DNA of 64,000 nt from Fibrobacter sp. Lineage in GTDB: Bacteria > Fibrobacterota > Fibrobacteria > Fibrobacterales > Fibrobacteraceae. Made by a program: the position numbers and the translations under genes. The stretch is from assembly GCA_024398875.1 (NCBI GenBank), contig JAKSIJ010000011.1, forward strand, positions 1 to 64,000. The letters run 5' to 3'. Shown in pieces: positions 1-62,739 of the stretch. Position 1 is the first letter of the stretch, and the number at the start of each line of letters is the position of its first letter. The notes under the pieces were generated by a model. That model searched no databases. It saw only the letters and a list, made by a program, of their open reading frames with translations, and was not told the origin of the DNA.

Positions 1-611
1 CTGGCAATATTACCTACACGGCGAATTTCAAGGAGATTCCTGCTTCTTCCAGCTCTAGCGATGCGAAGTCTAGTTCCTCTGAAGCGAAATCCAGCAGCAG
101 CGGCGCCAAGAGCAGTTCCAGTTCTGCAAAATCTAGTAGCAGCGACGCAAAGTCTAGTAGCAGCGACGCCAAGAGCAGCTTTAGTTCTGCAAAATCTAGC
201 TCCAGCGATGTAAAGTCTAGCTCCTCTGAAGCTGTTTCCAGTTCTAGTTCTGCGAAGAGTTCCTCAAGTTCCGCGAAGTCTAGTTCTTCTGAAGTGAAGT
301 CCAGTTCCTCCGAGGCTGAATCCAGCTCCAGTGAAGCGAAGTCCAGCTCTAGCGACGCAAAATCCAGCAGCAGCCAGAAGGAATCCATCATCGCCCAGGC
401 TCAACTGCCGCAGTTCAGCGTCACCGCCTCCGGAAAGATGGTCTCCATCGCTGGCGCCCGCCCGAACTCCATCGTGAACGTCTTTGACATGCAGGGCAAC
501 ATGGTGAAGACGGTTGTGGCTACCTCCGCCAACTTCACCTTCGCTCTGCCCAGCGCCGGCGTGTACATCGTCAAGAACGGCTACACCGCCAAGCGTGTGA
601 ACGTCCGGTAG
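1..611 (+). CDS. C-terminal part of a GLUG-type giant secreted protein (5' end outside window)
   Basis: The reading frame is open from base 3 and stops with TAG at 609-611. It encodes the end of a divergent InlB B-repeat-like module (GNITYTANFKEI), a serine linker built on KSSSSEA/KSSSSDA heptads, and a 79-residue C-terminal domain containing FDMQGNMVKTVV and GVYIVKNGYTAKRVNVR. The same architecture ends the two complete GLUG genes downstream, so this is very likely a third paralogue whose GLUG core lies left of the window. The C-terminal domain resembles type IX secretion sorting domains: a beta-sandwich with an FDxxG turn and a basic end. Surface location is inferred. The serine linker mixes TCN and AGY codons. 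Confidence 0.9.
   Translation, partial: GNITYTANFKEIPASSSSSDAKSSSSEAKSSSSGAKSSSSSAKSSSSDAKSSSSDAKSSFSSAKSSSSDVKSSSSEAVSSSSSAKSSSSSAKSSSSEVKSSSSEAESSSSEAKSSSSDAKSSSSQKESIIAQAQLPQFSVTASGKMVSIAGARPNSIVNVFDMQGNMVKTVVATSANFTFALPSAGVYIVKNGYTAKRVNVR
375..611 (+). repeat. 237-bp near-identical C-terminal-domain block, copy 1
   Basis: This segment runs from the QKES codons to the stop and recurs at 9719-9955 and 15241-15477. Copies 1 and 2 differ at only about two bases; copy 3 differs at about nine, clustered near the 3' end. Similarity stops abruptly after the stop codon. This suggests gene conversion or recent duplication. Confidence 0.9.
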
Positions 612-628
612 ACTGATTTCCATAGTTT

Positions 629-656
629 TACGCAATTTGCGTTACGCATTTTGCGT
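629..656. promoter_or_regulatory. Tandem 14-bp operator-like repeat
   Basis: TACGCAATTTGCGT (629-642) is followed directly by TACGCATTTTGCGT (643-656). There is one mismatch, and each unit is nearly palindromic (ACGCA...TGCGT). The pair lies just upstream of the ATPase start, so a dimeric regulator, perhaps the gene's own product, may bind here. That role is inferred from position only. Confidence 0.45.
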
Positions 657-682
657 AATTTTGTTATATTGAAGGTATGAAT

Positions 683-1807
683 ATGTCAATCAATCCCTTC
701 TTTGTTTATGGCTATGGTGGTGCAAAGTATTTTTGTGACCGTAAAACAGAAACCGAAAACCTGATTTCTTCTCTAAAGAACGGCCGGAACGTCACGCTGC
801 TGAGCCCACGCCGTATGGGGAAAACCGGGCTTATTCTTCATGCTTTTGAACAACTAAAAAAACGCGATAGGAACGTGGCCTGTTTCTATATGGATATTTT
901 TCCGACAAGGTCGCTGGAACAATTCACTGCCTTGTTGGGTAAAACGATTCTTGGAACTCTGGACGGTATCGGCAGAAGGGCTGTAAATGCCGCGGTTCAG
1001 GCGTTAAAAAGCTGCAGGGTGGTGGTGTCGGCAGACCCTGTGACCGGTGCACCGCAGTCTTCCTTGGAATTTCAACCGCAGTATGCTAAAAACACGCTTG
1101 AAGAAATTTTTTCCTACCTGAAGAATTCCGACAGGGAATGCTTTGTCGCCATTGATGAATTTCAACAGATTGCGGATTATAAGGATGAAAACATCGAGGC
1201 GCTGTTGCGCTCCTACATCCAGTTTTGTCCGAACGTCCACTTCATTTTTTCGGGAAGCAAGCATCACCTGATGTCGGAGATGTTCGGCTCTGTGGGGCAT
1301 CCGTTTTACCGCAGCACGGAGATTGTCAATTTGTATGCCATTGAGAAATCTGCATATTATGACTTTGCCTATGCATGGATGAGATTTGCACGTATCAAAA
1401 TGTCCCGAGAAGTCTTTGGCGCCTTGCATTCCCGCTTGGAAGGCCATACTTGGTACATGCAGAACGTCTTGAATCGGCTTTATGAAATGCGCCCCGCAGA
1501 GGTTACGCTGGATGATGTGAATATCTGCATTCAGAAGATTATGAATGCGGAAATGGATGTTTATCAGCGTATGCAGAATTCTCTCACCGACAACCAGAAT
1601 CGCCTGCTAGTCGCCATTGCGCATGAAGGTGGCGTGCCCAATATCAATGCCGGAAATTTTATCCAGAAGTATGGTTTGAAAACGGCGAGTAGCGTGAATC
1701 GCGCCCTGGATTATTTGCTGGACAAGGAATTCGTCATGAGCACGCCGAAGGGGTATGTTGTTTATGACCGGTTCTTTGCTTTGTGGCTCAAGGGCATCGG
1801 CTTTTAA
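683..1807 (+). CDS. P-loop ATPase, archaeal-type ATPase family (AAA+/STAND-like)
   Basis: The protein has about 374 residues. The N-terminus carries the FVYGYGGAKYFCDR motif common in this family, then a Walker A (SPRRMGKTG), a Walker B with catalytic acidic pair (CFVAIDEFQQI), and a sensor-like strand (FIFSGSKHHL). The C-terminal 75 residues look like a winged helix. I place the start at ATG 683 because GAAGG at 671-675 is correctly spaced for it; an in-frame ATG at 677 is too close. Such ATPases are common in Bacteroidota and Fibrobacterota, and their function is generally unknown; a role in transposition, defence or regulation has been suggested for relatives. It sits between two giant surface-protein genes, and the last six codons of this gene recur as a relic at 11386-11403. 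Confidence 0.85.
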   Translation: MSINPFFVYGYGGAKYFCDRKTETENLISSLKNGRNVTLLSPRRMGKTGLILHAFEQLKKRDRNVACFYMDIFPTRSLEQFTALLGKTILGTLDGIGRRAVNAAVQALKSCRVVVSADPVTGAPQSSLEFQPQYAKNTLEEIFSYLKNSDRECFVAIDEFQQIADYKDENIEALLRSYIQFCPNVHFIFSGSKHHLMSEMFGSVGHPFYRSTEIVNLYAIEKSAYYDFAYAWMRFARIKMSREVFGALHSRLEGHTWYMQNVLNRLYEMRPAEVTLDDVNICIQKIMNAEMDVYQRMQNSLTDNQNRLLVAIAHEGGVPNINAGNFIQKYGLKTASSVNRALDYLLDKEFVMSTPKGYVVYDRFFALWLKGIGF

Positions 1808-1938
1808 AACCCGCGGGGCCTCGGTTCGTTTATCTATATTTGAGGCGATAGTTCCCCGCATAAAGGAGAATCGATGGGAAAGATGGTTCGTGCAGTGTTG
1901 TTTGCCGTGATGGCTGTTTTTTCCACGGCGGTTTTTGC
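1789..1938 (+). repeat. 5' homology block of GLUG cassette, copy 1
   Basis: The block begins within the last codons of the ATPase gene and covers the whole intergenic region and the signal-peptide codons of the giant gene. It recurs at 11385-11534 with a constant offset of 9596 bp. I see one base difference in the 85 bp before the ATG. Confidence 0.9.
1835..1842 (+). promoter_or_regulatory. Putative -7 box (TATATTTG) of GLUG gene
   Basis: TATATTTG matches the Bacteroidota consensus TAnnTTTG and lies 31 bp before the ATG at 1874. An AAAGGAG ribosome-binding site sits between them. No clear TTG element was seen about 20 bp further upstream. The identical box lies at 11431-11438. Confidence 0.5.
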
Positions 1939-4900
1939 TGAAACAGGAAACCCGTGTGCAATGCCCGAGAATCTTGATGAGATAGACGGGGTTTACCAAA
2001 TAGGCACCTGTGGCGACCTCTACAAGTTTGCTGAGATGGTGAATGGCGGAAAAACTTCCATCAACGGTATGTTGACTGCGGACATCAGCGTGAACGTGGG
2101 CGTGCTCACTTCCGACGGAACATTGAGTGGGACCAACTTCACACAGTGGACTCCGATTGGAACGGAAACCCAGAAATTCAAAGGAACATTTGATGGCAAT
2201 GGCCATACCATCAGCGGACTGTACTTCAGCGATGAAAATGTGTATTACGTGGGCCTGTTCGGGTATATTGGCAATGGTGCAAACGTTCAGAATGTGGGTG
2301 TGGCGGATTCCTATATCAAAGGGCAAATTTATGTCGGTGGCGTGGTCGGTTATTGTTCCGGTGCCGTTAGCAATGCATACAATATGGGTGCCGTGGACGG
2401 AGACCAATATGTCGGTGGTGTGGTCGGAGGAAACAAAAAAGATGGTAACATCGAAAATGTGTATAACACTGGCACTGTGAGCGGAGGATACGCGGCAGGT
2501 GGCGTGGTTGGGGACAATTCTGGCCTCGTTAGACTAGTATACAACACGGGTGCAGTGAAAGGTAAACCAAGTAATCGTGATATCGGCGGTGTGGTCGGAT
2601 ATAACGAAGGCTTCGTCAGCAACGCTTATTACAACACGGATTTTTATACAGGGGGTGCTGTTGGTACAAATGGAGGGAAAGCAGATGTTGAAGGCAAAAC
2701 GACTGCCGAACTTGCCAGTATAACGCTGCCTTCAGATTGGTGGTATGTCGGGTCTGGAGAACCTTTTGGGCGCAATGGAAAACTGGTGTACAAACTCCCT
2801 AAGCTTAAGATTTTCGAATCGCAGTCGCAGCCGGAATTAGTGGTTTTCCAAGAAAAGGCAGACGGTTATTACGAAATCAGCAACGCCCAGGAACTCAAGT
2901 GGTTTGCTCAACTCGTTAATAGCGGCACTTCCGAGATCATAGGCGAGTTGACTGCGGATATCTGTCTGAACGCCTGCGGCGAAGGCGAAAGCGTGCTCAA
3001 GGCAGACGGGACCTTGAATGGAGACGGTTCCAACTTCACACAGTGGACTCCGATTGGAACATCGTCAACTCCATATAAAGGGTTCTTTGATGGCAATGGC
3101 CATACCATCAGTGGGTTGTACTTCAATGATGAATCAAAGGATAATGTGGGCCTGTTCGGGTATATTGGCAATGATGCATTCGTTCAGAATGTGGGTATGG
3201 AGGATTCCTATATCAGGGGAGCGGGCACTGTCGGCGTCGTGGCCGGATATAACGATGGTACCGTTAGCATCGTTTATAACACTGGTGCGGTGAGTGGAGG
3301 AAACAAGGTTGGCGGCGTGGTCGGGGTCAACGGCACCGCTGGCACCGTCGAAATGGCTTACAACACTGGCGCGGTGAGTGGAGGAAACATGGTTGGTGGC
3401 GTGGTCGGGAGTAATGATGGCACCGTCCGCAGCGTTTACAATACTGGTGCGGTGAGTGGAGAAGACGGAGTCGGTGGCGTGGTCGGGAGTAATGGTGGCA
3501 CCGTCATAATAGCTTACAACACTGGCGCGGTGAGTGGAACTGCTGAAAAAAGTGAAGATGTCGGTGGCGTGGTCGGGAATAATGGTGGCACCGTCCGCAA
3601 CGTTTACAACACTGGCGCGGTGAGTGGAATAGACAGAGTTGGCGGCGTGGTCGGATATAACAAAAACATCGTCAGCGACGCTTATTACAACACGGATTTT
3701 TATACAGGGAGTGCTGTTGGTGAAAATGGTGGAATAGTTCGTAGTGCTGAAGGAAAACCGACTGCCGAACTTGCCAGTACAACGCTGCCTCCAAATTTGT
3801 GGGTCGCTGGGTCCGGAGAGCAGCCGGTTGTGAGTGATGGAAAACTGGTGTACAAATTACCGGGGCTTATAGATGTGGGCTCGCAACCAGAAATTGAGTA
3901 TACCGGATTCCAGCCTAATGCAGACGGTTATTACGAAATCAGTAACGCCCTGGAACTCAAATGTTTTGCTCAGCTCGTGAACAGTGGTGCTACTAGTATC
4001 AAAGGCAGGTTGACTGCGGACATTTGTGTGAATGCTTGCGGAGAAGGCGAAAGCGTGCTCAAGGCCGACGGCACCTTGAATGGAAACGGTTCCAACTTCA
4101 CGCAGTGGACTCCGATTGGAACGTTTGAAAGCCCGTATAAAGGAACATTTGATGGCAATGGCCATACCATCAATGGATTGTACTTCAACGATGAAAATGC
4201 AGATGGCGTGGGCTTGTTCGGGTCCATTGACTATGGTGCAAAAGTTCAGAATGTGGGTGTGGTGGATTCCTATATCAGGGGAGCGGGCACTGTCGGCGGC
4301 GTGGTCGGGTGGAATATGAGAGGCTCCGTCAGCAACGTTTACAACGCTGGTGCGGTGAGTGGAAATGATAGGGTCGGCGGCGTGGTCGGGAATAATGGTG
4401 GCTCCGTCAGCAATGTTTACAACACTGGCGCGGTGAGTGGACTGGGCGACGTCGGCGGCGTGGTCGGGACAAATGAGGATGGCTTCGTCAGTAACGTTTA
4501 CAACACTGGCGCGGTGAATGGACGGAACGACGTCGGCGGCGTGGCCGGGGAAAATGGTGGCTTCGTCAGTAACGTTTACAACACTGGCGCGGTGAGTGGA
4601 GATGGTAATGGGGTCGGCGGCGTGGTCGGGAATAATGGTGGCTCCGTCAGCAACGTTTACAACACTGGCGCGGTGAGTGGAGAAAACTGGGTTGGCGGCG
4701 TGGTCGGATATAGTGGTCGCACCGTTAGCAACGTTTATTACAATACGGATTCTTATACAGGGAGTGCTGTTGGAAAATGTGATGGAGAATGTGAGTATAA
4801 AAATGTTGAAGGCAAGACGACCGTAGAACTTGCTAGCACGACGCTGCCTGATGGCTTCTCCAGCGAAATTTGGGTTGCGGGTTCCGGAGAATCGTTTGTG

Positions 4901-7900
4901 AACAATGGAAAACTGTTGCTCAAATTACCGGGGCTCAAAAATGTGGGCTCGCAGCCGGAAATAGAATATACCGGATTCCAGCCCAATGGAGATGGTTTTT
5001 ACGAGATTAGCACTGCACAGGAACTCAAGTGGTTCGCGCAACTCGTAAATGGCGGTGCTACCGATATCAATGGCAAACTGACTGCGGATATCTGCGTGAA
5101 CGCATGCGGCGAAGGCGAAAGCGTGCTCAAGGCTGATGGAACTTTGAACGGCGACGGTTCCAACTTCACGCAGTGGACTCCCATTGGAACGGCAGAAATA
5201 CCATATACAGGGACATTTGATGGCATGGATGCCGAAGGGAATGCACATGTCATTAGAGGGTTATACTTCAATTATGGATATGTGAATTATGTGGGCCTGT
5301 TCGGCCACATTGGCTCTGGTTCGACAGTTAAGAACGTAGGCGTGGTGGATTCGTATATATCGGGGAAGGATTATGTCGGCGGTGTGGTCGGATATAACGA
5401 AGGCACAGCCAGCAATGTGTACAACACTGGCTTCGTGAGCGGAGATTTGGAGGTTGGCGGCGTGGTCGGGTATAATGAGGGTGGCTCTGTCAGTAAAGTG
5501 TACAACGCTGGCTCTGTGAGTGGACACAGCGATGTTGGTGGCGTGGTAGGAGATAACGATGGTCTCATAGACAATGGATACAACACCGGCGTTGTGAATG
5601 GTAGTTTTGTTGGTGGCGTGGTCGGGTGGAATAGTGGCACCGTCAGCAATGTGTATAACACAGGTTCTGTGAGCGGGTCGTCGCCTGTTGGCGGCATAGT
5701 CGGGAATAACGAAGGCTCTGTCAGCAATGTGTATAACACAGGCTTTGTGAGTGGTGAAGATGATGTTGGCGGCATAGTCGGGTATAACGATGCTGATGTT
5801 GGCAAGGCCTATTACAGTACGGATGTACCTTGTGAAGGATGCAGTAATTATTATGGGGCGGGCAAGACGACTGCCGAACTCGCCTCTCTTACGATTGGCG
5901 ATGTGTCCGCGGATTTCCCCCTGCTAGTGGGCGAAGTAGAAAGCCCATGGATCGTTGGGTCCGGAGAGCAGCCGGTTGTGAGTGATGGAAAACTGGTGTA
6001 CAAATTACCGGGGCTTATAGATGTGGGCTCGCAACCGGAATTAGTGGTTTTCCAAGAAAATGCAGAAGGTTATTACGAAATCAGCAACGCCCAGGAACTC
6101 AAGTGGTTCGCTCAACTCGTGAACAGTGGTGCTACTAATATCAACGGCAGGTTGACTGCGGACATCTGTCTGAACGCCTGCGGCGAAGGCGAAAGCGTGC
6201 TCAAGGCAGACGGATCTTTGAATGGAGACGGTTCCAACTTCACGCAGTGGACTCACATTGGAACGGACGTTAATCCATATGATGGAACTTTCGATGGTCA
6301 AGGCCATACCATCCGCGGATTGTATTTCAACGATGAAAATGTGAATTACGTGGGCCTGTTCGGGTTCATTAGCGATAAGGCGAAAGTTCAGAATGTGGGT
6401 GTGGTGGATTCCTATTTCAGGGGAGCGAGCACTGTTGGCGGCGTGGTCGGATTAAATGCGGGAGGCACCATCAGCAACGTTTACAACAATGGTACGGTGA
6501 GAGGAAATGATGATAGGGTCGGCGGCGTAGTCGGGAATAATGGTGGCGCCATCAGCAACGTTTACAACACTGGCGCGGTGAGTGGAGAATACTGGGTTGG
6601 CGGCGTGGTCGGATATAATAGTGGCACCGTCAGCAACGTTTACAACACTGGCGCGGTGAGTGGAAACAAAAATGTCGGCGGCGTGGTCGGATTAAATGAG
6701 GGTGGCACCGTCAGCAACGTTTACAACACTGGCGCGGTGAGTGGAACAAACAGCAGAGTCGGTGGCGTGGTCGGATATGTATACTACCATAGCACTGTCG
6801 AAAACGCTTATTACAATACGGATTCTTATACAGGGAGTGCTTTGGGTGAAAATGTGAGTGGAAGTATTGAAAATGTTGATGGCAAAACGACCGTAGAACT
6901 TGCTAGTACGACGCTGCCTGATGGCTTCTCCAGTGAAATTTGGAATGCCGGGTCTGGAGAACCTGTTGGGAGCAATGGAAAACTGGTGTACAAACTACCA
7001 GGGCTTAAAGATGTGGGCACGCAGCCGGAAATTGAATATACCGGATTCCAGCCTAATGCAGACGGTTATTACGAAATCAGTAACGCCCTGGAACTCAAAT
7101 GGTTTGCTAAACTCGTGAACGGTGGCGCTATCGACATCAAAGGCAAGTTGACAGCAAACATTTGCCTGAACGCTTGTGGTGAAGACGAAAGCGTGCTCAA
7201 GGCAGACGGGACCTTGAATGGAGACGGTTCCAACTTTACGCAGTGGATTCCCATTGGAACTAAAGATGCAATGTTTAAAGGAACTTTCGATGGCGCAGGC
7301 CATACCATCAGCGGGCTTTATTTCAATGATGATAAAACAAGTTATGCAGGACTTTTTGGGAGAAGTACGATAAATGGTTCTATCAAGAATGTCGGCGTGG
7401 TGGACTCCTATATCAAGGGTAATGAGCATGTTGGTGGCATTGTCGGACATAATGGTAATTGCACAGTCAGCAATGTATTTAGCACGAGTACGGTGGAAGG
7501 AGCCACATATGTCGGTGGCATTGCAGGTTTTAACGAAGCTGGAACCATAGTAAATGCTTACAATATGGGTGCTATAAAAGGAAAATCCTGGGTTGGTGGC
7601 ATTGCCGGGTATAATCAAGGCACTACATCGCACATCAACAACGTTTATAGTTCTGGAACCGTAAGTGGAACAAGTTATGTGAGGGGCTTGGTTGGGTATA
7701 ATAATGAATCTAAAACGAAAATCGATAATGCTTTTTACAACACGGATGTTTTTTCGGGGATGGCTGTTGGAAATGTTGATGGAACAAACGTCGAGGGTAA
7801 GACGACTGCTGAACTTGCTAGCACGACGCTGCCTGAGGGCTTCTCCAGCGAAATTTGGTTAGCAGGTTCCAAAGATGTTGTTGATGGCAAACTGGTGTAC

Positions 7901-9955
7901 AAATTCCCAGGACTCAAGATTTTTAACTCGCAGCCAGAGTTGCTGCTTTTCAATGTCCAAAAGGGTTCCGATGGAAAAGACTATTGCGAAATTGCCAATG
8001 CTGACGATTTGTTCAAGTTTGCACAGCTCGTGAACGGTGGCGCTACTGGACTCAACGCCAAGTTGACTGCGGACATCTGTGTGAACGGCTGTGGCGAAGG
8101 CGAAAAGTCTTTGTTAGAGCAGGTTGCCGACCTTGAAGCGAAGGACGAGCTTTCGTCTGAAAGTTTCCGACCGTGGACTCCGATGAATGTTTCATCGAAT
8201 GTGACGGTGGCGTTCGACGGTAATGGTCACACTATCAGCGGGCTGTACTTCAATAAAGAAAAATCTTCCCAGATTGGACTTTTTGGTCAGGTGGTAGGTG
8301 ATGTTTCTGTCAGCAACTTGGGTGTTGTGGATTTTTATGTTAACGGGAATGGTGAGGTTGGTAGCCTTGCCGGACAAGTCACTGGCAAATTAAACATTAA
8401 AAATTGTTATAGTGCTGGTTCCGTGAAAGGAGTGCATTATATTGGCGGCATTGTCGGTGTAAATAGAGATGGTGCCGAATTGAAGATTGAGAACAGTTAT
8501 AACGAAAGTTCCGTGAATGCGCCTTCAGGGATTGTCGGCGGCCTTGTGGGGGAAATCTTTAATTTCGCTAGATTGACCATCACGAACAGCTACAATGCAG
8601 GCTCCGTGAGCGGAACGCAATATGTCGGCGGCCTTGTGGGAGATAACTATTCTGCTATTTTAACCATCGAGAACAGCTACAACGCAGGCACCGTGAGCGG
8701 AACGCAATATGCTGGCGGTCTTGTGGGGGTTAATGAAGATGGAACATTGAACGTTTCGAGCAGCTTCTTCCTTGCAACGGGTGGCGACGGAGATGCCCTC
8801 GGTGGCGAGGTTAGGTCTTCTGACGAATTCCACGACGGCACGGTTGCCGCAGAATTGCATAACTGGTGTGAAAAGGAAGATGGTTCCGAAGATTGCAAGG
8901 AAGGTGGTCTGAATGGCTCCGTGTGGGGGCAGGTTGCTGCTCCAAGAGAGGACGGCTCCGTAGATACTTGGCCTGTACTCGTTCTTGACGGAAGTGGAAA
9001 ACTCGTTTTCTCAATTGTCGCGGAAATGAATGGTGGTTCTACAAAAGATGCCTTCGCCACGAAATATGAGTATGGTACGAATTATGTCCTGCCCATTCCG
9101 GAACGTGCAAACTATACATTTGGCGGATGGTTCACGGATGCCACATTTACGGAGGGTTCCGGCATTACTGAAATCGTATCGACGGATTTTGGCCCGAAGA
9201 ATGTTTACGCCAAGTGGATTCCTGTTAAGTACACTGTCAAGGTCGCTGTAAACAATTCTGCGATGGGCGTTGTAGAAGGCCTGGAAAATTCTGGCGTTTA
9301 TGATTATGGCTCGGAAGTGACGCTCAGGGCGGTCGCTAAAACGGGCTACGAATTCAGCGACTGGGCCGATGACGTGAAGGCTTCTGCCGAGCGCACCATT
9401 GTTGTGACTGGCAATATTACCTACACGGCGAATTTCAAGGAGATTCCTGCTTCTTCCAGCTCCAGCGATGCGAAGTCTAGTTCTTCTGAAGCTGCTTCCA
9501 GTTCCAGCGAAGCGAAATCTAGTAGTAGCGATGGCAAGAGCAGTTCCAGTTCTGCGAAGAGTTCCTCAAGTTCCGCGAAGTCTAGTTCCAGCGAAGCGAA
9601 GTCCAGCTCCTCCGAGGCGAAGTCTAGCTCCAGCGATGCAAAGTCCAGCAGTAGCGGCGCCAAGAGCAGTTCCAGTTCTGCAAAATCTAGTAGCAGCGAC
9701 GCAAAATCCAGCAGCAGCCAGAAGGAATCCATCATCGCTCAGGCTCAACTGCCGCAGTTCAGCGTCACCGCCTCCGGAAAGATGGTCTCCATCGCTGGCG
9801 CCCGCCCGAACTCCATCGTGAACGTCTTTGACATGCAGGGCAACATGGTGAAGACGGTTGTGGCTACCTCCGCCAACTTCACCTTCGCTCTGCCCAGCGC
9901 CGGCGTGTACATCGTCAAGAACGGCTACACCGCCAAGCGTGTGAACGTCCGGTAA
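1874..9955 (+). CDS. Giant secreted GLUG-repeat surface protein
   Basis: This is a 2693-residue exported protein. Residues 1-22 form a signal peptide ending STAVFA. Seven blocks of about 330-360 residues follow, each starting with a YYEISNAQELKWFAQLVN-like segment and a CGEGES motif, then FDGNGHTI-GLYF, then a run of GLUG repeats (VGGVVGxNxGxVSNVYNTGAVSG), then YYNTDFYTG and KTTAELAS. Blocks start near residues 28, 329, 682, 1038, 1396, 1729 and 2032. The tail holds a List/Bact-type repeat with GGWFTD (about 2376-2446), an InlB B-repeat-like module (2453-2522), a serine linker and the shared sorting-type domain. GLUG repeats probably form a beta-helix; adhesion or glycan binding is likely but unproven. 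AAAGGAG precedes the ATG. Confidence 0.93.
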   Translation: MGKMVRAVLFAVMAVFSTAVFAETGNPCAMPENLDEIDGVYQIGTCGDLYKFAEMVNGGKTSINGMLTADISVNVGVLTSDGTLSGTNFTQWTPIGTETQKFKGTFDGNGHTISGLYFSDENVYYVGLFGYIGNGANVQNVGVADSYIKGQIYVGGVVGYCSGAVSNAYNMGAVDGDQYVGGVVGGNKKDGNIENVYNTGTVSGGYAAGGVVGDNSGLVRLVYNTGAVKGKPSNRDIGGVVGYNEGFVSNAYYNTDFYTGGAVGTNGGKADVEGKTTAELASITLPSDWWYVGSGEPFGRNGKLVYKLPKLKIFESQSQPELVVFQEKADGYYEISNAQELKWFAQLVNSGTSEIIGELTADICLNACGEGESVLKADGTLNGDGSNFTQWTPIGTSSTPYKGFFDGNGHTISGLYFNDESKDNVGLFGYIGNDAFVQNVGMEDSYIRGAGTVGVVAGYNDGTVSIVYNTGAVSGGNKVGGVVGVNGTAGTVEMAYNTGAVSGGNMVGGVVGSNDGTVRSVYNTGAVSGEDGVGGVVGSNGGTVIIAYNTGAVSGTAEKSEDVGGVVGNNGGTVRNVYNTGAVSGIDRVGGVVGYNKNIVSDAYYNTDFYTGSAVGENGGIVRSAEGKPTAELASTTLPPNLWVAGSGEQPVVSDGKLVYKLPGLIDVGSQPEIEYTGFQPNADGYYEISNALELKCFAQLVNSGATSIKGRLTADICVNACGEGESVLKADGTLNGNGSNFTQWTPIGTFESPYKGTFDGNGHTINGLYFNDENADGVGLFGSIDYGAKVQNVGVVDSYIRGAGTVGGVVGWNMRGSVSNVYNAGAVSGNDRVGGVVGNNGGSVSNVYNTGAVSGLGDVGGVVGTNEDGFVSNVYNTGAVNGRNDVGGVAGENGGFVSNVYNTGAVSGDGNGVGGVVGNNGGSVSNVYNTGAVSGENWVGGVVGYSGRTVSNVYYNTDSYTGSAVGKCDGECEYKNVEGKTTVELASTTLPDGFSSEIWVAGSGESFVNNGKLLLKLPGLKNVGSQPEIEYTGFQPNGDGFYEISTAQELKWFAQLVNGGATDINGKLTADICVNACGEGESVLKADGTLNGDGSNFTQWTPIGTAEIPYTGTFDGMDAEGNAHVIRGLYFNYGYVNYVGLFGHIGSGSTVKNVGVVDSYISGKDYVGGVVGYNEGTASNVYNTGFVSGDLEVGGVVGYNEGGSVSKVYNAGSVSGHSDVGGVVGDNDGLIDNGYNTGVVNGSFVGGVVGWNSGTVSNVYNTGSVSGSSPVGGIVGNNEGSVSNVYNTGFVSGEDDVGGIVGYNDADVGKAYYSTDVPCEGCSNYYGAGKTTAELASLTIGDVSADFPLLVGEVESPWIVGSGEQPVVSDGKLVYKLPGLIDVGSQPELVVFQENAEGYYEISNAQELKWFAQLVNSGATNINGRLTADICLNACGEGESVLKADGSLNGDGSNFTQWTHIGTDVNPYDGTFDGQGHTIRGLYFNDENVNYVGLFGFISDKAKVQNVGVVDSYFRGASTVGGVVGLNAGGTISNVYNNGTVRGNDDRVGGVVGNNGGAISNVYNTGAVSGEYWVGGVVGYNSGTVSNVYNTGAVSGNKNVGGVVGLNEGGTVSNVYNTGAVSGTNSRVGGVVGYVYYHSTVENAYYNTDSYTGSALGENVSGSIENVDGKTTVELASTTLPDGFSSEIWNAGSGEPVGSNGKLVYKLPGLKDVGTQPEIEYTGFQPNADGYYEISNALELKWFAKLVNGGAIDIKGKLTANICLNACGEDESVLKADGTLNGDGSNFTQWIPIGTKDAMFKGTFDGAGHTISGLYFNDDKTSYAGLFGRSTINGSIKNVGVVDSYIKGNEHVGGIVGHNGNCTVSNVFSTSTVEGATYVGGIAGFNEAGTIVNAYNMGAIKGKSWVGGIAGYNQGTTSHINNVYSSGTVSGTSYVRGLVGYNNESKTKIDNAFYNTDVFSGMAVGNVDGTNVEGKTTAELASTTLPEGFSSEIWLAGSKDVVDGKLVYKFPGLKIFNSQPELLLFNVQKGSDGKDYCEIANADDLFKFAQLVNGGATGLNAKLTADICVNGCGEGEKSLLEQVADLEAKDELSSESFRPWTPMNVSSNVTVAFDGNGHTISGLYFNKEKSSQIGLFGQVVGDVSVSNLGVVDFYVNGNGEVGSLAGQVTGKLNIKNCYSAGSVKGVHYIGGIVGVNRDGAELKIENSYNESSVNAPSGIVGGLVGEIFNFARLTITNSYNAGSVSGTQYVGGLVGDNYSAILTIENSYNAGTVSGTQYAGGLVGVNEDGTLNVSSSFFLATGGDGDALGGEVRSSDEFHDGTVAAELHNWCEKEDGSEDCKEGGLNGSVWGQVAAPREDGSVDTWPVLVLDGSGKLVFSIVAEMNGGSTKDAFATKYEYGTNYVLPIPERANYTFGGWFTDATFTEGSGITEIVSTDFGPKNVYAKWIPVKYTVKVAVNNSAMGVVEGLENSGVYDYGSEVTLRAVAKTGYEFSDWADDVKASAERTIVVTGNITYTANFKEIPASSSSSDAKSSSSEAASSSSEAKSSSSDGKSSSSSAKSSSSSAKSSSSEAKSSSSEAKSSSSDAKSSSSGAKSSSSSAKSSSSDAKSSSSQKESIIAQAQLPQFSVTASGKMVSIAGARPNSIVNVFDMQGNMVKTVVATSANFTFALPSAGVYIVKNGYTAKRVNVR
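9719..9955 (+). repeat. 237-bp C-terminal-domain block, copy 2
   Basis: Near-identical to 375-611. It ends exactly at the stop codon (TAA here, TAG in copy 1). Confidence 0.9.
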
Positions 9956-10107
9956 AGTGCGCATAGGGAAAAATGCGTCTGCTCTATTTGAATATTGTTT
10001 CAAAAAGTATGATTTGTTCTAGTTTTTAGAAATATTTTTAATAATATTTTTCAAAAACTTAAAATTTTTATATATTTTAGAAACGAATAATGAATAAAAG
10101 GCAATGT

Positions 10108-11340
10108 ATGGAGTTGACGCGAACCCGCTATTTGGAGCAAATCCGACCATTTTATGAATCAGACTTGATAAAGGTCTTGACGGGCGTTCGTCGTTCCGGG
10201 AAATCGGTTCTTTTGAATTCCATCAAAAGCGAATTACAGCAGCAGGGCGTTCCCGGGAGCAGGATTGTCTCCATCAACCTCGAGGACCTTGATTTCTCAT
10301 ACATTCAGACAGCGAATGACCTGGACAAGGAAATCAAGAGCCGCATACAGGGGCGCGGAAAGTACTACATCTTTCTGGACGAAATACAGCACGTCGAAAA
10401 CTTCGAAAAGGCGTTGGCCTCGCTCCGTGCAAAACTCAACGCCTCCATCTTCGTCACCGGAAGCAATTCAAGGCTACTCTCTGGCGAACTTGCCACACTG
10501 CTCACGGGACGCACTGTGGAATTCGAGATATTCCCCTTCTCTTTCATAGAAATGAAGGAATATTTCGAACTGAACGGGAGGGATTTTTCCGAGAACCTGA
10601 TTTATGACTACATCAAGTGGGGCGGCTTCCCCGTGCGCTTCGATTTCTACGAAGAGGAGTCCACAAGACGCTACCTCGAAAATCTGTACACAGGCATTGT
10701 CGGGAACGACCTTCTAAAAACAGGCGGGAACGTTCAAAAGAAACAGCTCCTAGACATTTCCCTTTATATTCTGGCAAATGCGGGGCGCGACTTTTCTGCG
10801 GAAAGCATCGCGGAAACCTACAAAGCAGAACACGCCTCCAAAGGCAAAAAGACAATCACCTCGAAAACAGTTTGTAATTACCTGGACCGCCTGGAAAGAG
10901 CCTTTTTAATCCACAAGGTCAAGCGCTTTGACATATTCGGAAAGCGGGCCTTGAAGTCCAAGGAAAAATTCTATGCGGTCGATACAGGCCTCAGGATTAT
11001 CCAGACAAATTCCGTGATTTTCGAAGACACCTTCTTCTTGGAAAACATCGTTTACAACGAACTCCGCCAGAGGGGATTCACCGTCTATATCGGAAAGACG
11101 TATAAGGGCGAAGTGGATTTCATCGCCGTAAGGAATGGCAAGAAATGCTTTATCCAGGTGGCGTACCTATTGGCAAACGAAAGCACAATTCAGCGGGAAT
11201 TCGGAGCGTTCAGCCCTATCCGCGACGCCTCGCCAAAGTACGTCATCTCGCTGGACAAAATCAACATGGGCCGAAACGGAATTGCCCACATCAACCTGGT
11301 CGATTTCCTGTTGCAAAAGCAGGATTTGCTGCTGACGTAA
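10108..11340 (+). CDS. ATP-binding protein, AAA_14 plus DUF4143 family
   Basis: The protein has about 410 residues. The N-terminal ATPase domain has Walker A GVRRSGKS and Walker B YIFLDEIQHVENF, followed by a sensor motif (FVTGSNSRLLSGE) and the typical TGRTVEFEIFPFSF segment. The C-terminal DUF4143 half contains a restriction-nuclease-fold-like pattern (GEVDFIAVRNGKKCFIQV). These proteins are abundant in bacteria and archaea without a settled function. I prefer ATG 10108 because AAAAGG at 10096-10101 is spaced for it; the upstream in-frame ATG at 10090 has no such site. The gene occupies the place where an ATPase of the 683-1807 family appears to have stood, judged by the relic downstream. 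AT-rich DNA precedes it. Confidence 0.88.
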   Translation: MELTRTRYLEQIRPFYESDLIKVLTGVRRSGKSVLLNSIKSELQQQGVPGSRIVSINLEDLDFSYIQTANDLDKEIKSRIQGRGKYYIFLDEIQHVENFEKALASLRAKLNASIFVTGSNSRLLSGELATLLTGRTVEFEIFPFSFIEMKEYFELNGRDFSENLIYDYIKWGGFPVRFDFYEEESTRRYLENLYTGIVGNDLLKTGGNVQKKQLLDISLYILANAGRDFSAESIAETYKAEHASKGKKTITSKTVCNYLDRLERAFLIHKVKRFDIFGKRALKSKEKFYAVDTGLRIIQTNSVIFEDTFFLENIVYNELRQRGFTVYIGKTYKGEVDFIAVRNGKKCFIQVAYLLANESTIQREFGAFSPIRDASPKYVISLDKINMGRNGIAHINLVDFLLQKQDLLLT

Positions 11341-11384
11341 GTGTGCCCTATTGCGTGATTTTTTATCCACAATTCAAAAACCTG

Positions 11385-11534
11385 CAAGGGCGTCGGCTTT
11401 TAAAACCCGCGGGGCCTCGGTTCGTTTATCTATATTTGAGGCGATAGTTCCCCGCATAAAGGAGAATCGATGGGAAAGATGGCTCGTGCAGTTTTGTTTG
11501 CCATGATGGCTGTTTTTTCGACGGCGGTTTTTGC
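11385..11534 (+). repeat. 5' homology block of GLUG cassette, copy 2, with ATPase relic
   Basis: Bases 11386-11403 read AAG GGC GTC GGC TTT TAA, matching the last codons (K-G-I-G-F-stop) of the ATPase gene ending at 1807. The rest of that gene is absent. The block continues through the promoter and signal peptide of the next giant gene. Confidence 0.85.
11431..11438 (+). promoter_or_regulatory. Putative -7 box (TATATTTG) of second complete GLUG gene
   Basis: Exact copy of the 1835-1842 box, at the same 31-bp distance from the ATG at 11470. Confidence 0.5.
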
Positions 11535-14500
11535 TGCCCCGTGCGTGATGCCCGCGAATCTCACGGAGATTGACGGGGTTTATCAGATTGGAACCTGCGG
11601 CGACCTCTACAAGTTTGCCGAGATGGTTAATGGCGGCGAGACTGACATCAACGGCAAGTTGACTGCGGATATTGATTTGAACGGCAGTGACTCAAAACAG
11701 TGGACCCCCATTGGAACGGAATCAACACCATACGCAGGGATATTTGATGGCAAGGATGGCGAAGGGAATGTCCATGTCATCAGCGGGTTGTACTTCAATG
11801 ATGAAAATGTGAATTACGTGGGCCTGTTCGGAATCATAGATTATGATGCGAAAGTCCAGAATGTGGGTGTGGTGGATTCCTATATCAGGGGAGCGGGCAC
11901 TGTCGGCGGCGTGGTCGGATTAAATGCGGGTGGCTTCATCAGCAATGTTTACAACACCGGTGTGGTGAGTGGAAGCAGCAATGTTGGCGGCGTGGCCGGG
12001 AATAATGGTGGCACCGTCAGCAACGTTTACAACACTGGCGCGGTGAGTGGAAGCAGCAATGTTGGCGGCGTGGTCGGGAATAATGGTGGCACCGTCAGCA
12101 ACGTTTACAACACTGGTGCGGTGAGTGGAACAGACGGCAGGGTCGGCGGCGTGGTCGGGAATAATGGTGGCACCCTTAGCAATGTTTACAACACTGGCGC
12201 GGTGAGTGGAATAGACAGAGTTGGCGGCGTGGTCGGATATAATAGTGGCACCGTCAGCAACGTTTACAACACTGGCGCGGTGAGTGGGAATAATGTTGTT
12301 GGCGGCGTGGTCGGGAATAATGATCGCACCGTCAGCAACGTTTACAACACTGGTGCGGTGAGTGGAGAAGGTCTTGTTGGCGGTGTGGTCGGGGCGAATA
12401 CGACAAAAATTTACGTCGCTTATTACAATACGGATTTTTATACAGGGAATGCTATTGGAGAAAATGCAAATGAAGCGAAAGTTTCTCATGTTGAAGGTAA
12501 GACGACTGCCGAACTTATCGCAATTGATATAGGTCCAGATTGGGTGGCCGGCAATTTAGCATACGACAAGACAACCGGGAAATTGACCGCCAGTTTCCCC
12601 TATCTAGAAATTTTCGCAGATTTCCAATACAAGATAACGGCTTTGGAGTTCAAGGTTGTTGACAACGTCATTCAGATTGCAAATGCGGACGACCTCAAGG
12701 ATTTTGCAAGGCTGGTAAATGAATTTGGCGTGACGGATGTTGATGCCAAGTTGACGGCAGACATCTGTCTGAACGCCTGCGGCGAAGGCGAAAGCGTGCT
12801 CAAGGCAGATGGGACCTTGAATGGAGACGGTTCCAACTTCACGCAGTGGACACCAATAGGGACATTTACAAAACCTTTTGTCGGAACGTTTGATGGTGCT
12901 GGACATATTGTATATGGAATGTATTTTAATGACGCTGTGAATGATATAGGATTGTTTCGTTGGGTTGGGTCTGAAGGAAAGGTAATGAATGTTGGTGTGG
13001 AGGATTCTTACCTCAAGGGAGCGTATGGTGTCGGAGGTGTCGTTTCTGATAATAAGGGTATTGTAGACAATGTTTATAATACGGGATCCGTAAATGGAAC
13101 AGGGGCGTGCATAGGTGGTATTGTTGGTAGTAATGTAGGAACAGTTAGTGATTCCTACAATACGGGTATTGTAATCGGTGGTGGCAACTATGTTGGCGGA
13201 GTGGTTGGGTATTCTTCGGGGAAGATTTACAATGCGTACAATACAGGTAGAGTGGAAGGGACAAATGAAGAAAATGAAGGTGTTGGTGGCATAGTTGGCG
13301 TTAGTAATATAGGGGCGGTTGTCAGCAATGTTTATAATACGGGTGATGTGGATGGTGTTAGCGACCACGTTGGCGGAGTGGCCGGAGCTAACAGGGGATC
13401 CATTAGCAACGCATACTTCAATACGGATTTTTTTGATGGAGATGCAATTGGTTCCGGCGAAGGTTCGAATGTCGAAGGCAAAAAGACTACAGAACTTGCC
13501 GCTCTTGATGTGACGTTGGCGTTTGAAAATTCTGATGGTGTATGGAACGGTGGTTATTACATTATTTCTAATGGTTGGCGGAAGTACGCTTTTCCGAGTT
13601 TAAAAGGCGTGGGAACGGCTCCAACATTTATCGAACTTGACCCCAATGCGACAGAGGTTGAAATCAGCAATGTTGAAGAACTTTTCAAGTTCGCCGAGTT
13701 TGTAAATGCTGGCAATACTACTCTCAACGGCAAGTTGACGGCTGATATCGTTGTGAACGAGAATCTGCTGGGCATGGATAATGCCAACGTTAAAAGCGAT
13801 GGAAACTTTGATGTGGATGCGTTCAAAAATACGCATGCAAGCGCTAAACCCATGGCCTGGACCCCGATTGGAACGAATGAAAAACCATATACAGGGACAT
13901 TCGACGGCAATGGCAAATCAATCAGCGGGTTGTATTTTAATGATGACACTACCGCTTTTGTCGGCGTATTTGGGATTTTGGATGGAGCTGTCGTAAAAAA
14001 TGTTGGCGTTGAGGATTCCTATTTCAGGGGCCTGGGAGCAGTCGGCGCTGTTGTTGGGTTGGTTGCTGAAGGTGAAGTCAGCAATGTTTATAGCAAGAGT
14101 ATTGTGAGTGGAAAAGAAAATGTGGGTGGCATTGTTGGAGTCAATGTTGGTAAAGTCGCGGATAGCGACAATATGGGTTCTGTGAGTGGAAAAGAAAATG
14201 TGGGCGGCGTTGCCGGGACCAGTGTTGGTAAAGTCATGGATAGTTATAATACGGGTACTGTAAGAGGTTCCCTCGTTATCGGTGGTGTGGTTGGTCATGT
14301 TCGTGATAAAGGCCAGGTTGATAAAGTCTATAATACGGGTGCTGTAAGTGGGGGAAAATTTGTCGGCGGTGTAATTGGGTATAACGATGCTAGCTTCGTC
14401 GGCAATATGTACAATACTGGCTCCGTGAGCGGGACAGATCTTTATGTTGGTGGCGTGGTTGGGGGTGTTGACAACAAAGGTTCCGTCAGCAATGTGTACA

Positions 14501-15477
14501 ACATGGGTTCCGTGAGTGGACCGAGGTTTACTATTGCCGGCGGCGTAGTTGGCTTCGACAACAGTGCCATTATCAGCAATGCCTACTTCAATACGGATTT
14601 CTATACGGGGAATGCTTTGGGTTCTGGCGAAGATGTTGAAAATGTCGGGGGTAAAACTAGTGCCGAACTTGCTGCTGGAACGTCCCTGAAATTGGATACG
14701 ACTGCTTGGGTTGTTGGCGCGGTAAGTGAAAATGTCAAGCGAGATACCCTCTACTACCCGTATCTCAAGGTCTTTGGCCCGCATAAGTATGTGTTGGGCG
14801 ACGTGAAGAAGTACGCCATCACGGTTGCCGTAAACGATAAAACCATGGGAACTGTGACAGGTGCTGGAACGTACGAATACGGCACAAAAGTTGAAATCAA
14901 AGCTGTTGCAAATGAGGGCTACAAGTTTACCGACTGGGAAGACGACGTGAAGACGGCCGCCCGTACGATTACCGTGACTAAGGCAGAAACCTATACGGCC
15001 AATTTCGAGGCCATTCCGAGCAGCTCCAGTGAAGTGGAGAGTTGTTCAAGCGCAGCGGAAAGTAGTTCTTCTGAGACGGAATCCAGTTCCTCTGAAGCCG
15101 CCTCCAGTTCCAGCGAAGCGAAGTCTAGTTCTAGTGAGGCAAAGTCCAGCAGTAGCGACGCAGAAAGTAGCTCTTCTGAGGCAGAATCTAGCAGCAGTGA
15201 AGCGAAATCTAGTAGTAGCGACGCCAAGAGCAGTTCCAGCCAGAAGGAATCCATCATCGCCCAGGCTCAACTGCCGCAGTTCAGCGTCACCGCCTCCGGA
15301 AAGATGGTCTCCATCGCTGGCGCCCGCCCGAACTCCATCGTGAACGTCTTTGACATGCAGGGCAACATGGTGAAGACGGTTGTGGCTACCTCCGCCAACT
15401 TCACCTTTGCTCTCCCCAGTGCCGGCGTTTACATCGTCAAGAACGGCTACACCGCCAAGCGCGTGAACGTTAGATAA
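11470..15477 (+). CDS. Secreted GLUG-repeat surface protein, shorter paralogue
   Basis: The protein has 1335 residues and the same plan as the 2693-residue neighbour, but only three repeat blocks (starting near residues 23, 395 and 715). Residues 1-22 are a signal peptide nearly identical to the neighbour's. Its first block carries a run of near-perfect GLUG units (VSNVYNTGAVSG); blocks 2 and 3 are more diverged and use different codons. An InlB B-repeat-like module lies at about 1114-1182, a serine-glutamate-rich linker at 1183-1256 and the shared C-terminal domain at 1257-1335. It lacks the GGWFTD module. Export and surface anchoring are inferred from the signal peptide and C-terminal domain. 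AAAGGAG precedes the ATG. Confidence 0.93.
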   Translation: MGKMARAVLFAMMAVFSTAVFAAPCVMPANLTEIDGVYQIGTCGDLYKFAEMVNGGETDINGKLTADIDLNGSDSKQWTPIGTESTPYAGIFDGKDGEGNVHVISGLYFNDENVNYVGLFGIIDYDAKVQNVGVVDSYIRGAGTVGGVVGLNAGGFISNVYNTGVVSGSSNVGGVAGNNGGTVSNVYNTGAVSGSSNVGGVVGNNGGTVSNVYNTGAVSGTDGRVGGVVGNNGGTLSNVYNTGAVSGIDRVGGVVGYNSGTVSNVYNTGAVSGNNVVGGVVGNNDRTVSNVYNTGAVSGEGLVGGVVGANTTKIYVAYYNTDFYTGNAIGENANEAKVSHVEGKTTAELIAIDIGPDWVAGNLAYDKTTGKLTASFPYLEIFADFQYKITALEFKVVDNVIQIANADDLKDFARLVNEFGVTDVDAKLTADICLNACGEGESVLKADGTLNGDGSNFTQWTPIGTFTKPFVGTFDGAGHIVYGMYFNDAVNDIGLFRWVGSEGKVMNVGVEDSYLKGAYGVGGVVSDNKGIVDNVYNTGSVNGTGACIGGIVGSNVGTVSDSYNTGIVIGGGNYVGGVVGYSSGKIYNAYNTGRVEGTNEENEGVGGIVGVSNIGAVVSNVYNTGDVDGVSDHVGGVAGANRGSISNAYFNTDFFDGDAIGSGEGSNVEGKKTTELAALDVTLAFENSDGVWNGGYYIISNGWRKYAFPSLKGVGTAPTFIELDPNATEVEISNVEELFKFAEFVNAGNTTLNGKLTADIVVNENLLGMDNANVKSDGNFDVDAFKNTHASAKPMAWTPIGTNEKPYTGTFDGNGKSISGLYFNDDTTAFVGVFGILDGAVVKNVGVEDSYFRGLGAVGAVVGLVAEGEVSNVYSKSIVSGKENVGGIVGVNVGKVADSDNMGSVSGKENVGGVAGTSVGKVMDSYNTGTVRGSLVIGGVVGHVRDKGQVDKVYNTGAVSGGKFVGGVIGYNDASFVGNMYNTGSVSGTDLYVGGVVGGVDNKGSVSNVYNMGSVSGPRFTIAGGVVGFDNSAIISNAYFNTDFYTGNALGSGEDVENVGGKTSAELAAGTSLKLDTTAWVVGAVSENVKRDTLYYPYLKVFGPHKYVLGDVKKYAITVAVNDKTMGTVTGAGTYEYGTKVEIKAVANEGYKFTDWEDDVKTAARTITVTKAETYTANFEAIPSSSSEVESCSSAAESSSSETESSSSEAASSSSEAKSSSSEAKSSSSDAESSSSEAESSSSEAKSSSSDAKSSSSQKESIIAQAQLPQFSVTASGKMVSIAGARPNSIVNVFDMQGNMVKTVVATSANFTFALPSAGVYIVKNGYTAKRVNVR
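15241..15477 (+). repeat. 237-bp C-terminal-domain block, copy 3
   Basis: Matches copies at 375-611 and 9719-9955, with differences concentrated in the last 80 bases, all or nearly all silent. Confidence 0.9.
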
Positions 15478-60604: not shown

Positions 60605-62099
60605 CGGCGAAAAGCCCGCCGATGATGAAGATGACGCCCACAACCAGTGAAAGGACTGCGCTGCGGGTAAAGCCTGCAATGATGTAGCTTACAAAGCTCA
60701 CGCTTGCCACAGCCAGAGCGTAGGGGAGCTGGGTATTCACGTGGTTCACATGATTACATTCGGCGCCGGCGCTAGCCATGATGGTAGTGTCTGAAATGGG
60801 GGAGATGTGGTCGCCACAAACAGCACCCGCCATACAGGCAGAGATGGAAATAATCATCAGGTTGTAGTCGATACCGCTGAAGGCTGCCACTACAATAGGA
60901 ATCAAGATGCCGAAGGTTCCCCAGGAGGTGCCGGTGGCAAAAGCCAGGAACACGGCGATGAGGAAGATGATGGCGGGCATCAGGTTCATGAAGGTGGAGG
61001 CACTGCCGGCGATAAGGCCTGCAACGAAGTCCTTGGCACCAAGGGTGTCGGTAACGCCCTTCAAACTCCAGGCCAGCACCAGAATGAGGATGGCGGGCAC
61101 CATGGCCTTGAAGCCTTCAGGAAGGCATTCCAGGCATTTGCGGAGTTTAAGAACGCGACGAGTCAAGTACCAAGCGATGGTGAAGGTGAGGGCGGCAAAG
61201 CTACCCAGCACAAGGCCAACGGAAGCGTCACTGGCGCCAAAGGCATCCACGAAGCCCTTGTGGGCTTCGCCACTGCTGAAGAATCCGCCGGTATAGATAA
61301 GTCCGATAAAGCAGAAAATGATGAGGCTGATGATGGGGAAGACAAGGTCCAGGATTCCGCCCTTACCTTCAGCGGGGGCGATGTCCTTCATCTTTTCGTC
61401 AATCATCTGTTCTGCGTTTTCAAACTTCTTCATGGGGCCAAAATCCACCTTCATCAAAACGATGGCGAAGAGGGCCACGATGGTGAGGAGTGCGTAGAAG
61501 TTGTAGGGAATGGCCTTCACAAAGAGTCCCAGTCCGTCTTCGCCATCTACAAAGCCCGTCACCGCCGCCGCCCAGGAACTGATGGGGGCGATAATGCAGA
61601 TAGGGGCGGCGGTAGAGTCGATGAGGTAAGAGAGCTTTTCATGGCTCACCTTGAACTTGTCGGTGACCGGGCGCATCACACTACCTACGGTGAGGCAGTT
61701 GAAGTAGTCGTCCACAAAGATGAGAATGCCAAGGCAGATGGTTGCAACCTGGGCCCCAACCTTAGATTTGATGTGGGTCTTGGCCCAGTTACCGAAAGCG
61801 GCGGATCCGCCGGACTTGTTCATCAGGGCGACCATGGTGCCTAGGATGACCAGGAAGAAAAGAATACCGACGTTCCAGGGGTCGCTGACCTGCTTAATCA
61901 TGCCGTCTTTGAATACGGCGTCCAAGAAGGCGGGGAAACTTCCCTGGCTGATAAACAGGGCTCCCATGACAACACCGCAGAACAAGGAGGAATAGGCTTC
62001 CTTAGTAATGAGGGCGAGGAGGATTGCCACAATGGGTGGTACCAGTGCCCAGAATGTGCCGTGGGCGAAAATCCAAGTTTCTACAACTTGCTGTTCCAT
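60564..62099 (-). CDS. Na+/H+ antiporter, NhaC family
   Basis: The protein has 511 residues with about 12-13 helices. Family motifs: VPPIVAILLALITKEAYSSLFCGV, FVDDYFNCLTVGSVMRPVTDKFKVSHEKLSYLIDSTAAP (ion-site Asp pair) and ATGTSWGTFGILIPI with GDHISPISDTTIMASAGAECNHVNHVNTQ. It exchanges sodium for protons or organic anions at the inner membrane. It overlaps the convergent EamA gene by 41 bp. Confidence 0.92.
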   Translation of the reverse strand: MEQQVVETWIFAHGTFWALVPPIVAILLALITKEAYSSLFCGVVMGALFISQGSFPAFLDAVFKDGMIKQVSDPWNVGILFFLVILGTMVALMNKSGGSAAFGNWAKTHIKSKVGAQVATICLGILIFVDDYFNCLTVGSVMRPVTDKFKVSHEKLSYLIDSTAAPICIIAPISSWAAAVTGFVDGEDGLGLFVKAIPYNFYALLTIVALFAIVLMKVDFGPMKKFENAEQMIDEKMKDIAPAEGKGGILDLVFPIISLIIFCFIGLIYTGGFFSSGEAHKGFVDAFGASDASVGLVLGSFAALTFTIAWYLTRRVLKLRKCLECLPEGFKAMVPAILILVLAWSLKGVTDTLGAKDFVAGLIAGSASTFMNLMPAIIFLIAVFLAFATGTSWGTFGILIPIVVAAFSGIDYNLMIISISACMAGAVCGDHISPISDTTIMASAGAECNHVNHVNTQLPYALAVASVSFVSYIIAGFTRSAVLSLVVGVIFIIGGLFAVKMICRKNGAVQK

Positions 62100-62231
62100 C
62101 AGGACTCCTAAACTTTTGAAAAGTATGGATGTTTTAAAAGATTTTTAAAATCTAGTCAAAATAAAGCTGGCGATGTAATGTGGACCTAAAAAATGGGTTT
62201 TGGATAAGTGAAAAAAGCGGGATTGTTGCAC

Positions 62232-62257
62232 AAAAAAGCCGCGACGGTAGTCGCGGC
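62232..62257 (-). terminator. Terminator of mscL
   Basis: GCCGCGAC-GGTA-GTCGCGGC, 8-bp perfect stem, with six Ts on the minus strand. Confidence 0.9.
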
Positions 62258-62292
62258 GTAAATCTTGGTTCCTGAGTCGAGGAATCCGGCGA

Positions 62293-62739
62293 TTACTTCT
62301 TGAGAAGGTCGCGGATTTCGGTGAGGAGCTTTTCCTCAGCAGACGGTTCAGGAGGAGCAGGAGGTTCGGCAGGAGCCGGAGCTTCTTCTTCCTTCTTGCG
62401 CATGTTCTGCATGAAGCCAAGGAACTTTTTCATGACGATGAACACCACGATGGCCACAATGAGGAAGTCGATGATGCCACCGATGAAGCTGCCATAAGGA
62501 ATTTCAACGCCACCGAGGTTTGCGCTGAGAGCCTTGAGGCCTTCGCCAGCATCCTTGCCGCCACCGAGGGCGATAAGACCTGTAACGCAAGGCATGACGA
62601 TGTCATTCACGAAAGAGGTGACGATCTTACCGAAGGCGCCGCCGATGATAACACCGATGGCCATGTCGACGATGTTGCCCTTGAATGCGAAGGCCTTGAA
62701 TTCTTCGAGAAGGGATGTTGCTTTTCCTTTGATATTCAT
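62293..62739 (-). CDS. mscL: Large-conductance mechanosensitive channel MscL
   Basis: The protein has 148 residues. [35 protein letters not shown] (N-terminal amphipathic helix and pore-lining TM1) and the second helix ([18 protein letters not shown]) are canonical; the tail [13 protein letters not shown] is the bundle helix. An Ala/Pro/Glu-rich spacer separates TM2 and that helix. It opens on sudden osmotic downshock. Confidence 0.97.

Follow-up and report, generated by a model that had tools for sequence, protein, structure and literature searches.

The GLUG genes at the start of the window, a stretch of 64,000 nucleotides from a Fibrobacter sp. genome (GenBank assembly GCA_024398875.1, contig JAKSIJ010000011.1), probably belong to a recombination-shuffled family of secreted proteins that occupies three loci and whose modules have been swapped both between copies and with a sister species. 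Each protein combines a signal-like N-terminus, two to seven predicted beta-helix blocks, a Ser-rich linker and a C-terminal T9SS sorting domain, the last of which should direct it to the cell surface. As we envisage it, the copies would recombine by homology, both at the conserved junctions between blocks and at the conserved ends, so that whole blocks and ends move between loci and the number of genes and of rungs changes, and blocks would also be exchanged with the sister species. The machinery is presumably that of general homologous recombination, the proteins may serve as adhesins or as a coat, and there may be selection for diversity, whether by phage, grazers, host antibody or substrate.

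Two of the three GLUG genes in the window, A2 and A3, are complete (Table 1), while A1 is short only because the contig begins at position 1 and cuts it off. A2 and A3 each begin with a hydrophobic, signal-like N-terminus (in the family, as read by eye, it ends in ...STAVFA) and finish with the same 78-aa end, and their cores differ, as the earlier note had said, with seven blocks in A2 and three in A3. A block measures about 300-380 aa and is built from three to seven GLUG rungs of about 26 aa. The GLUG repeats (PF07581) score 137 and 86 bits, above the Pfam cut-off of 20.5, and a single block is predicted to fold as a beta-helix (pLDDT 84), the nearest structure being 3n6z (E 3.8e-7), a Bacteroides protein named putative IgA1 protease. 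The last 78 aa match TIGR04183, the T9SS type A sorting domain, with 26.1 bits against a cut-off of 23; a profile of Fibrobacter relatives matches gingipain C-terminal domains in the PDB, and the predicted seven-strand fold of this end has its best Foldseek matches in the sorting domains of RemA and RgpB, both T9SS substrates. The window's genome holds 26 sorting domains that exceed the TIGR04183 cut-off, as well as a gene for the SprA translocon (SprA_N, 88.5 bits), and export by the T9SS has been suggested for cellulases of F. succinogenes (PMC6851124). Since the 3' domain is a T9SS sorting domain, the constant 3' end is a common secretion tag and it is the varied part that should be displayed; the GLUG proteins are probably anchored at the cell surface.

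Table 1. Features of the GLUG locus in the window (positions in the window)
Feature	Position	Strand	Remarks
GLUG gene A1, 3' part only	1..611	+	cut at contig start
A1 Ser-rich linker	about 36-374	+	
A1 sorting domain	375-611	+	
AAA-type ATPase gene	677..1807	+	between A1 and A2, outside GLUG family
90-bp segment upstream of A2	1797..1886	+	exactly equal to 11393-11482; ATPase gene end, promoter-like TATATTTG (1835-1842), ribosome-binding site, first codons
GLUG gene A2, complete, 2693 aa	1874..9955	+	signal-like N-terminus, 7 blocks, List_Bact and InlB-type repeats, Ser-rich linker, T9SS sorting domain
274-bp recombination tract in A2	3669..3942	+	identical to A5 (contig C34)
267-bp tract	9695..9961	+	identical to A4 3' end (contig C34); runs 6 bp beyond A2 stop
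T9SS type A sorting domain of A2	9719..9955	+	
AAA_14-DUF4143 ATPase gene	10090..11340	+	between A2 and A3, outside GLUG family
90-bp copy of A2 upstream segment	11393..11482	+	promoter-like TATATTTG at 11431-11438
GLUG gene A3, complete, 1335 aa	11470..15477	+	3 blocks, InlB-type repeat, Ser-rich linker, T9SS sorting domain
A3 block 1	11545..12690	+	predicted beta-helix, pLDDT 84
1039-bp tract in A3	13753..14791	+	identical to G066 gene B6b, at a non-matching locus
T9SS type A sorting domain of A3	15241..15477	+	

The family in the window's genome comprises six 3' ends and five 5' ends on contigs C3, C34, C45, C12 and C9, with three further members beyond the window's genes spread over four other contigs; the genome carries at least six family genes at three loci. 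These loci (C34-C45, C9-C12 and that of the window) were recognised by comparison with G066, a Fibrobacter sp. MAG from horse faeces and the sole relative found among the named genomes scanned. Syntenic flanks of the two species are 94.5-97.2% identical, and the same three loci differ between them in gene number, cores and neighbouring genes, so that the search for the same locus with different cores in a related genome, which the earlier note had proposed, found what it was meant to find. At the C34 locus both species have the order GLUG-ATPase-GLUG, the blocks of the first gene counting 3, 7 and 2 rungs as opposed to 6, 6 and 2 in G066. At C9-C12, a probable lipoprotein gene of G066 is followed by three GLUG genes in tandem, whereas the window's genome has an AbiE-type toxin-antitoxin pair. 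At the window's locus two GLUG genes are visible in G066, along with a glycoside hydrolase 8 gene, and ATPase genes are missing. In any one family gene, the share of 150-bp windows that are at least 94% identical to the gene at the same locus is only 0-52%. The toxin-antitoxin pair, of AbiEi/AbiEii type, lies on C9 directly upstream of a GLUG gene (L012:1304-2754); with this pair in one species and a probable lipoprotein gene in the other, accessory genes seem to come and go at the GLUG loci. The interleaved ATPases were also considered as a component of the system, and were rejected because at two of the three loci they are missing from the arrays visible in the sister species.

The shared ends reported in the earlier note were borne out: the 5' DNA of the window's genes comes in two copies that are identical over 90 bp, and the 237-bp 3' domain in three copies with two, nine and nine differences among them, whose proteins are identical across the final 78 aa. 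The segment upstream of A3 even holds 11 bp from the 3' end of the first ATPase gene, though a different gene precedes it there, and this displaced relic is a direct trace of copying. That similarity ends at the stop codons is true, to within a few bases, of the window, but not of the copies on C45 and C12, where it continues beyond the stop, or of the sister species' arrays, where it continues as far as the next gene. The 3' ends differ on average by 6.3 bases within the window's genome, 12.8 between species and 12.7 within G066, and their clustering by species is modest (p 0.02, shuffled species labels), indicating that homogenisation within species is real, though not complete; among copies of the window's genome the 5' coding ends diverge by 4-17%. 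The picture is one of whole-gene mosaics rather than of uniform ends around isolated cores. Part of the constancy of the 3' end has a simpler cause, namely that it encodes the T9SS sorting domain, while its low synonymous divergence still requires recombination.

The longest identical tracts (1039, 615, 600 and 522 bp) sit in the cores. Besides the tract that A3 has in common with a G066 gene, A5 is identical over 615 bp to B6a of G066, at a different locus, and over 600 bp to A6, at another locus of its own genome; within G066, B4 and B6a have 522 bp in common, and 530 bp are exactly alike between the B6a-B6b and B6b-B6c borders. The genes that share the 1039- and 600-bp tracts are otherwise 79-85% alike. 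In pairwise alignments that are 69-93% identical, exact runs as long as those observed did not arise in any of 2000 permutations (p<=0.0005 in each tested pair). Synonymous differences per site between A3 and B6b, mostly 0.3-0.9, fall to 0.00 across the tract and then rise again, and the 5' break of this tract comes directly after the conserved block-junction sequence TTGACNGCNGAYAT, which occurs 32 times in family regions. Long exact tracts in cores, across loci and across species, thus indicate that recombination shuffles core modules between loci and between species. Of the earlier proposal, recombination between copies and different cores at the same loci are supported; that conversion keeps the ends uniform around separately varying cores is not, given where the longest tracts lie and how far the 5' ends have diverged. 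The core tracts, like the three further members on four contigs and the T9SS nature of the 3' domain, go beyond that note. Along about 78 kb of syntenic flank the longest exact match to G066 is 822 bp and the next 412; the former (window 61660-62481, in flank otherwise about 94% identical) overlaps a membrane transporter gene and its neighbour and is a possible recent exchange outside the GLUG family. Interspecies exchange is thus not unique to GLUG genes, which weakens any claim of special transfer.

One may also consider a true antigenic- or phase-variation system, in which gene conversion into expressed genes makes the cells of one strain switch cores frequently. The identical tracts, the many potential donors per genome and the combination of constant ends with differing cores would all suit it, and the earlier note had likened the layout to such systems. 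Nevertheless, no copy was seen to be silent or promoterless: each of the 11 5' ends recovered keeps a start codon, a ribosome-binding site, a signal-like N-terminus and the start region AAAGGAGAA, and the differences observed are between species, not between cells. The promoter-like TATATTTG is present in eight of the 11 (seven at -39, one at -91), and it fits the TAnnTTTG element known from Bacteroides promoters, which makes it a putative promoter element in Fibrobacter. No switch feature was found in these 5' ends: they hold no simple repeats and no coding repeats for phase variation, A2 and A3 have no homopolymer (two tracts lie upstream of starts elsewhere, at -128 in A6 and -64 in B3), inverted repeats of >=11 bp are absent from the 5' regions except for a short hairpin in B6a, with none flanking a promoter, and next to the loci no recombinase gene was noticed. 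The intact 5' ends speak against silent-cassette antigenic variation of the pilE/vlsE type, and the lack of inverted repeats around a promoter in them against invertible-promoter phase variation. Such a variation system is therefore improbable.

The main weakness of the mosaic evidence is that it rests on fragmented assemblies, the sister genome being a MAG, and on a comparison between species. Short-read assemblers might have created false mosaics, by linking the wrong copies wherever these have a word in common and by merging repeats that are almost the same. Indeed, C3, C9, C12, C34 and C45 all end within family genes, family truncations coincide with contig ends, and words of about 55 bp are common to contig ends and other family copies, so that a number of the junctions may be wrong and closely similar tracts may have been merged; joining at conserved in-frame words would, moreover, leave reading frames open. 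Yet the 1039- and 615-bp tracts are found in two separately binned genomes with differing outer sequence, and gene number and interleaved accessory genes differ at loci that are anchored by unique flanks, so we give an assembly artefact only a small chance of accounting for the mosaics. Since the family explains why assemblies break here, the true repertoire is probably underestimated.

It is very improbable that ordinary duplication followed by strong purifying selection, with protein constraint keeping the ends alike while the cores drift, underlies the pattern: the 3' end encodes a functional sorting domain, with codon differences within the window's genome, summed over pairs, of 80 synonymous to five non-synonymous, but protein selection does not hold synonymous sites identical across 215-1039 bp, the longest tracts are in cores and link different loci and species, and the GLUG genes of G034 and G084, which do evolve in this way, colinear and without paralogue tracts, look quite different. 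GLUG proteins are present in 52 of the 80 Fibrobacter genomes. The GLUG genes looked at in G034 and G084 are colinear orthologues, and no exact runs of 40 bp, within-gene repeats aside, exist between GLUG paralogues in G034, G084, G071, G008 or G029, control genomes that are better assembled and have more diverged paralogues. We therefore rejected the notion that GLUG repeats are generally recombinogenic; as the GLUG genes looked at in the controls behave normally, shuffling is a property of the window's GLUG sub-family, with the reservation that the controls' paralogues are more diverged and their assemblies better.

A GLUG protein of another kind was seen in one MAG, G007, where a gene on contig C19 (L065:1996-4203) encodes 735 aa with a signal-like N-terminus, GLUG repeats and a full ubiquitin domain that includes LRLRGG (PF00240, E 5e-30). 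The gene has uvrB on one side and a GLUG gene on the other, and at the matching place on C42 it is missing; ubiquitin-like sequences 65-100% identical to its own occur in 10 of the 80 Fibrobacter genomes. The two uvrB copies of G007 (L064 and L065, on C42 and C19), each adjoining a GLUG gene, are 95.5% identical, so that the MAG either mixes two strains or species or has had the gene duplicated.

A secreted GLUG family shuffled by recombination between its loci and with a sister species thus remains the reading that we prefer. A stronger version, a within-strain system in which T9SS-anchored beta-helix modules are continually reshuffled between expressed loci and topped up from a neighbour species, with neither a dedicated recombinase nor a switch, appears unlikely. 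The parts are ordinary (a T9SS tag and a GLUG beta-helix), and it is the evolutionary mode for which we found no report in Fibrobacter: no paper in the library searched joins GLUG and Fibrobacter, and a combined search on antigenic or phase variation and gene conversion listed none that focused on Fibrobacter. Recombinational surface variation has been studied mainly in pathogens, and here the case is a fibre-degrading gut genus. Whole beta-helix modules exchanged even across a species border would provide a system in which to ask what the driver is: phage, grazers, host antibody or substrate.

Among known systems, the opa genes of Neisseria (PMC13183285) likewise occupy several full-length fixed loci, with conserved parts and with variable regions recombined between loci, and there too conversion yields identical or near-identical alleles. 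The GLUG family differs in having no coding repeat for phase variation, in an exchanged unit that can be as large as an entire block, about 1 kb long, in predicted export by T9SS, in changes of copy number and of neighbouring genes, and in its host genus of fibre-degrading commensals; by this analogy, it would work like a recombining opa repertoire without the on/off switch. With other TIGR04183 proteins, including F. succinogenes cellulases (PMC6851124), it has in common the C-terminal sorting domain, which in the GLUG family matches gingipain and RemA domains in profile and fold, and its signal-like N-terminus would correspond to their N-terminal signal; its cargo, however, is GLUG beta-helix arrays and not enzymes, and sorting-domain DNA is near-identical only inside the GLUG gene family. 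Finally, PF07581 proteins, among them the IgA1 protease-type beta-helix domains (3n6z and others), have GLUG repeats and the closest predicted fold in common with it, whereas the Fibrobacter proteins string up to seven blocks in series and no protease domain was found in them.
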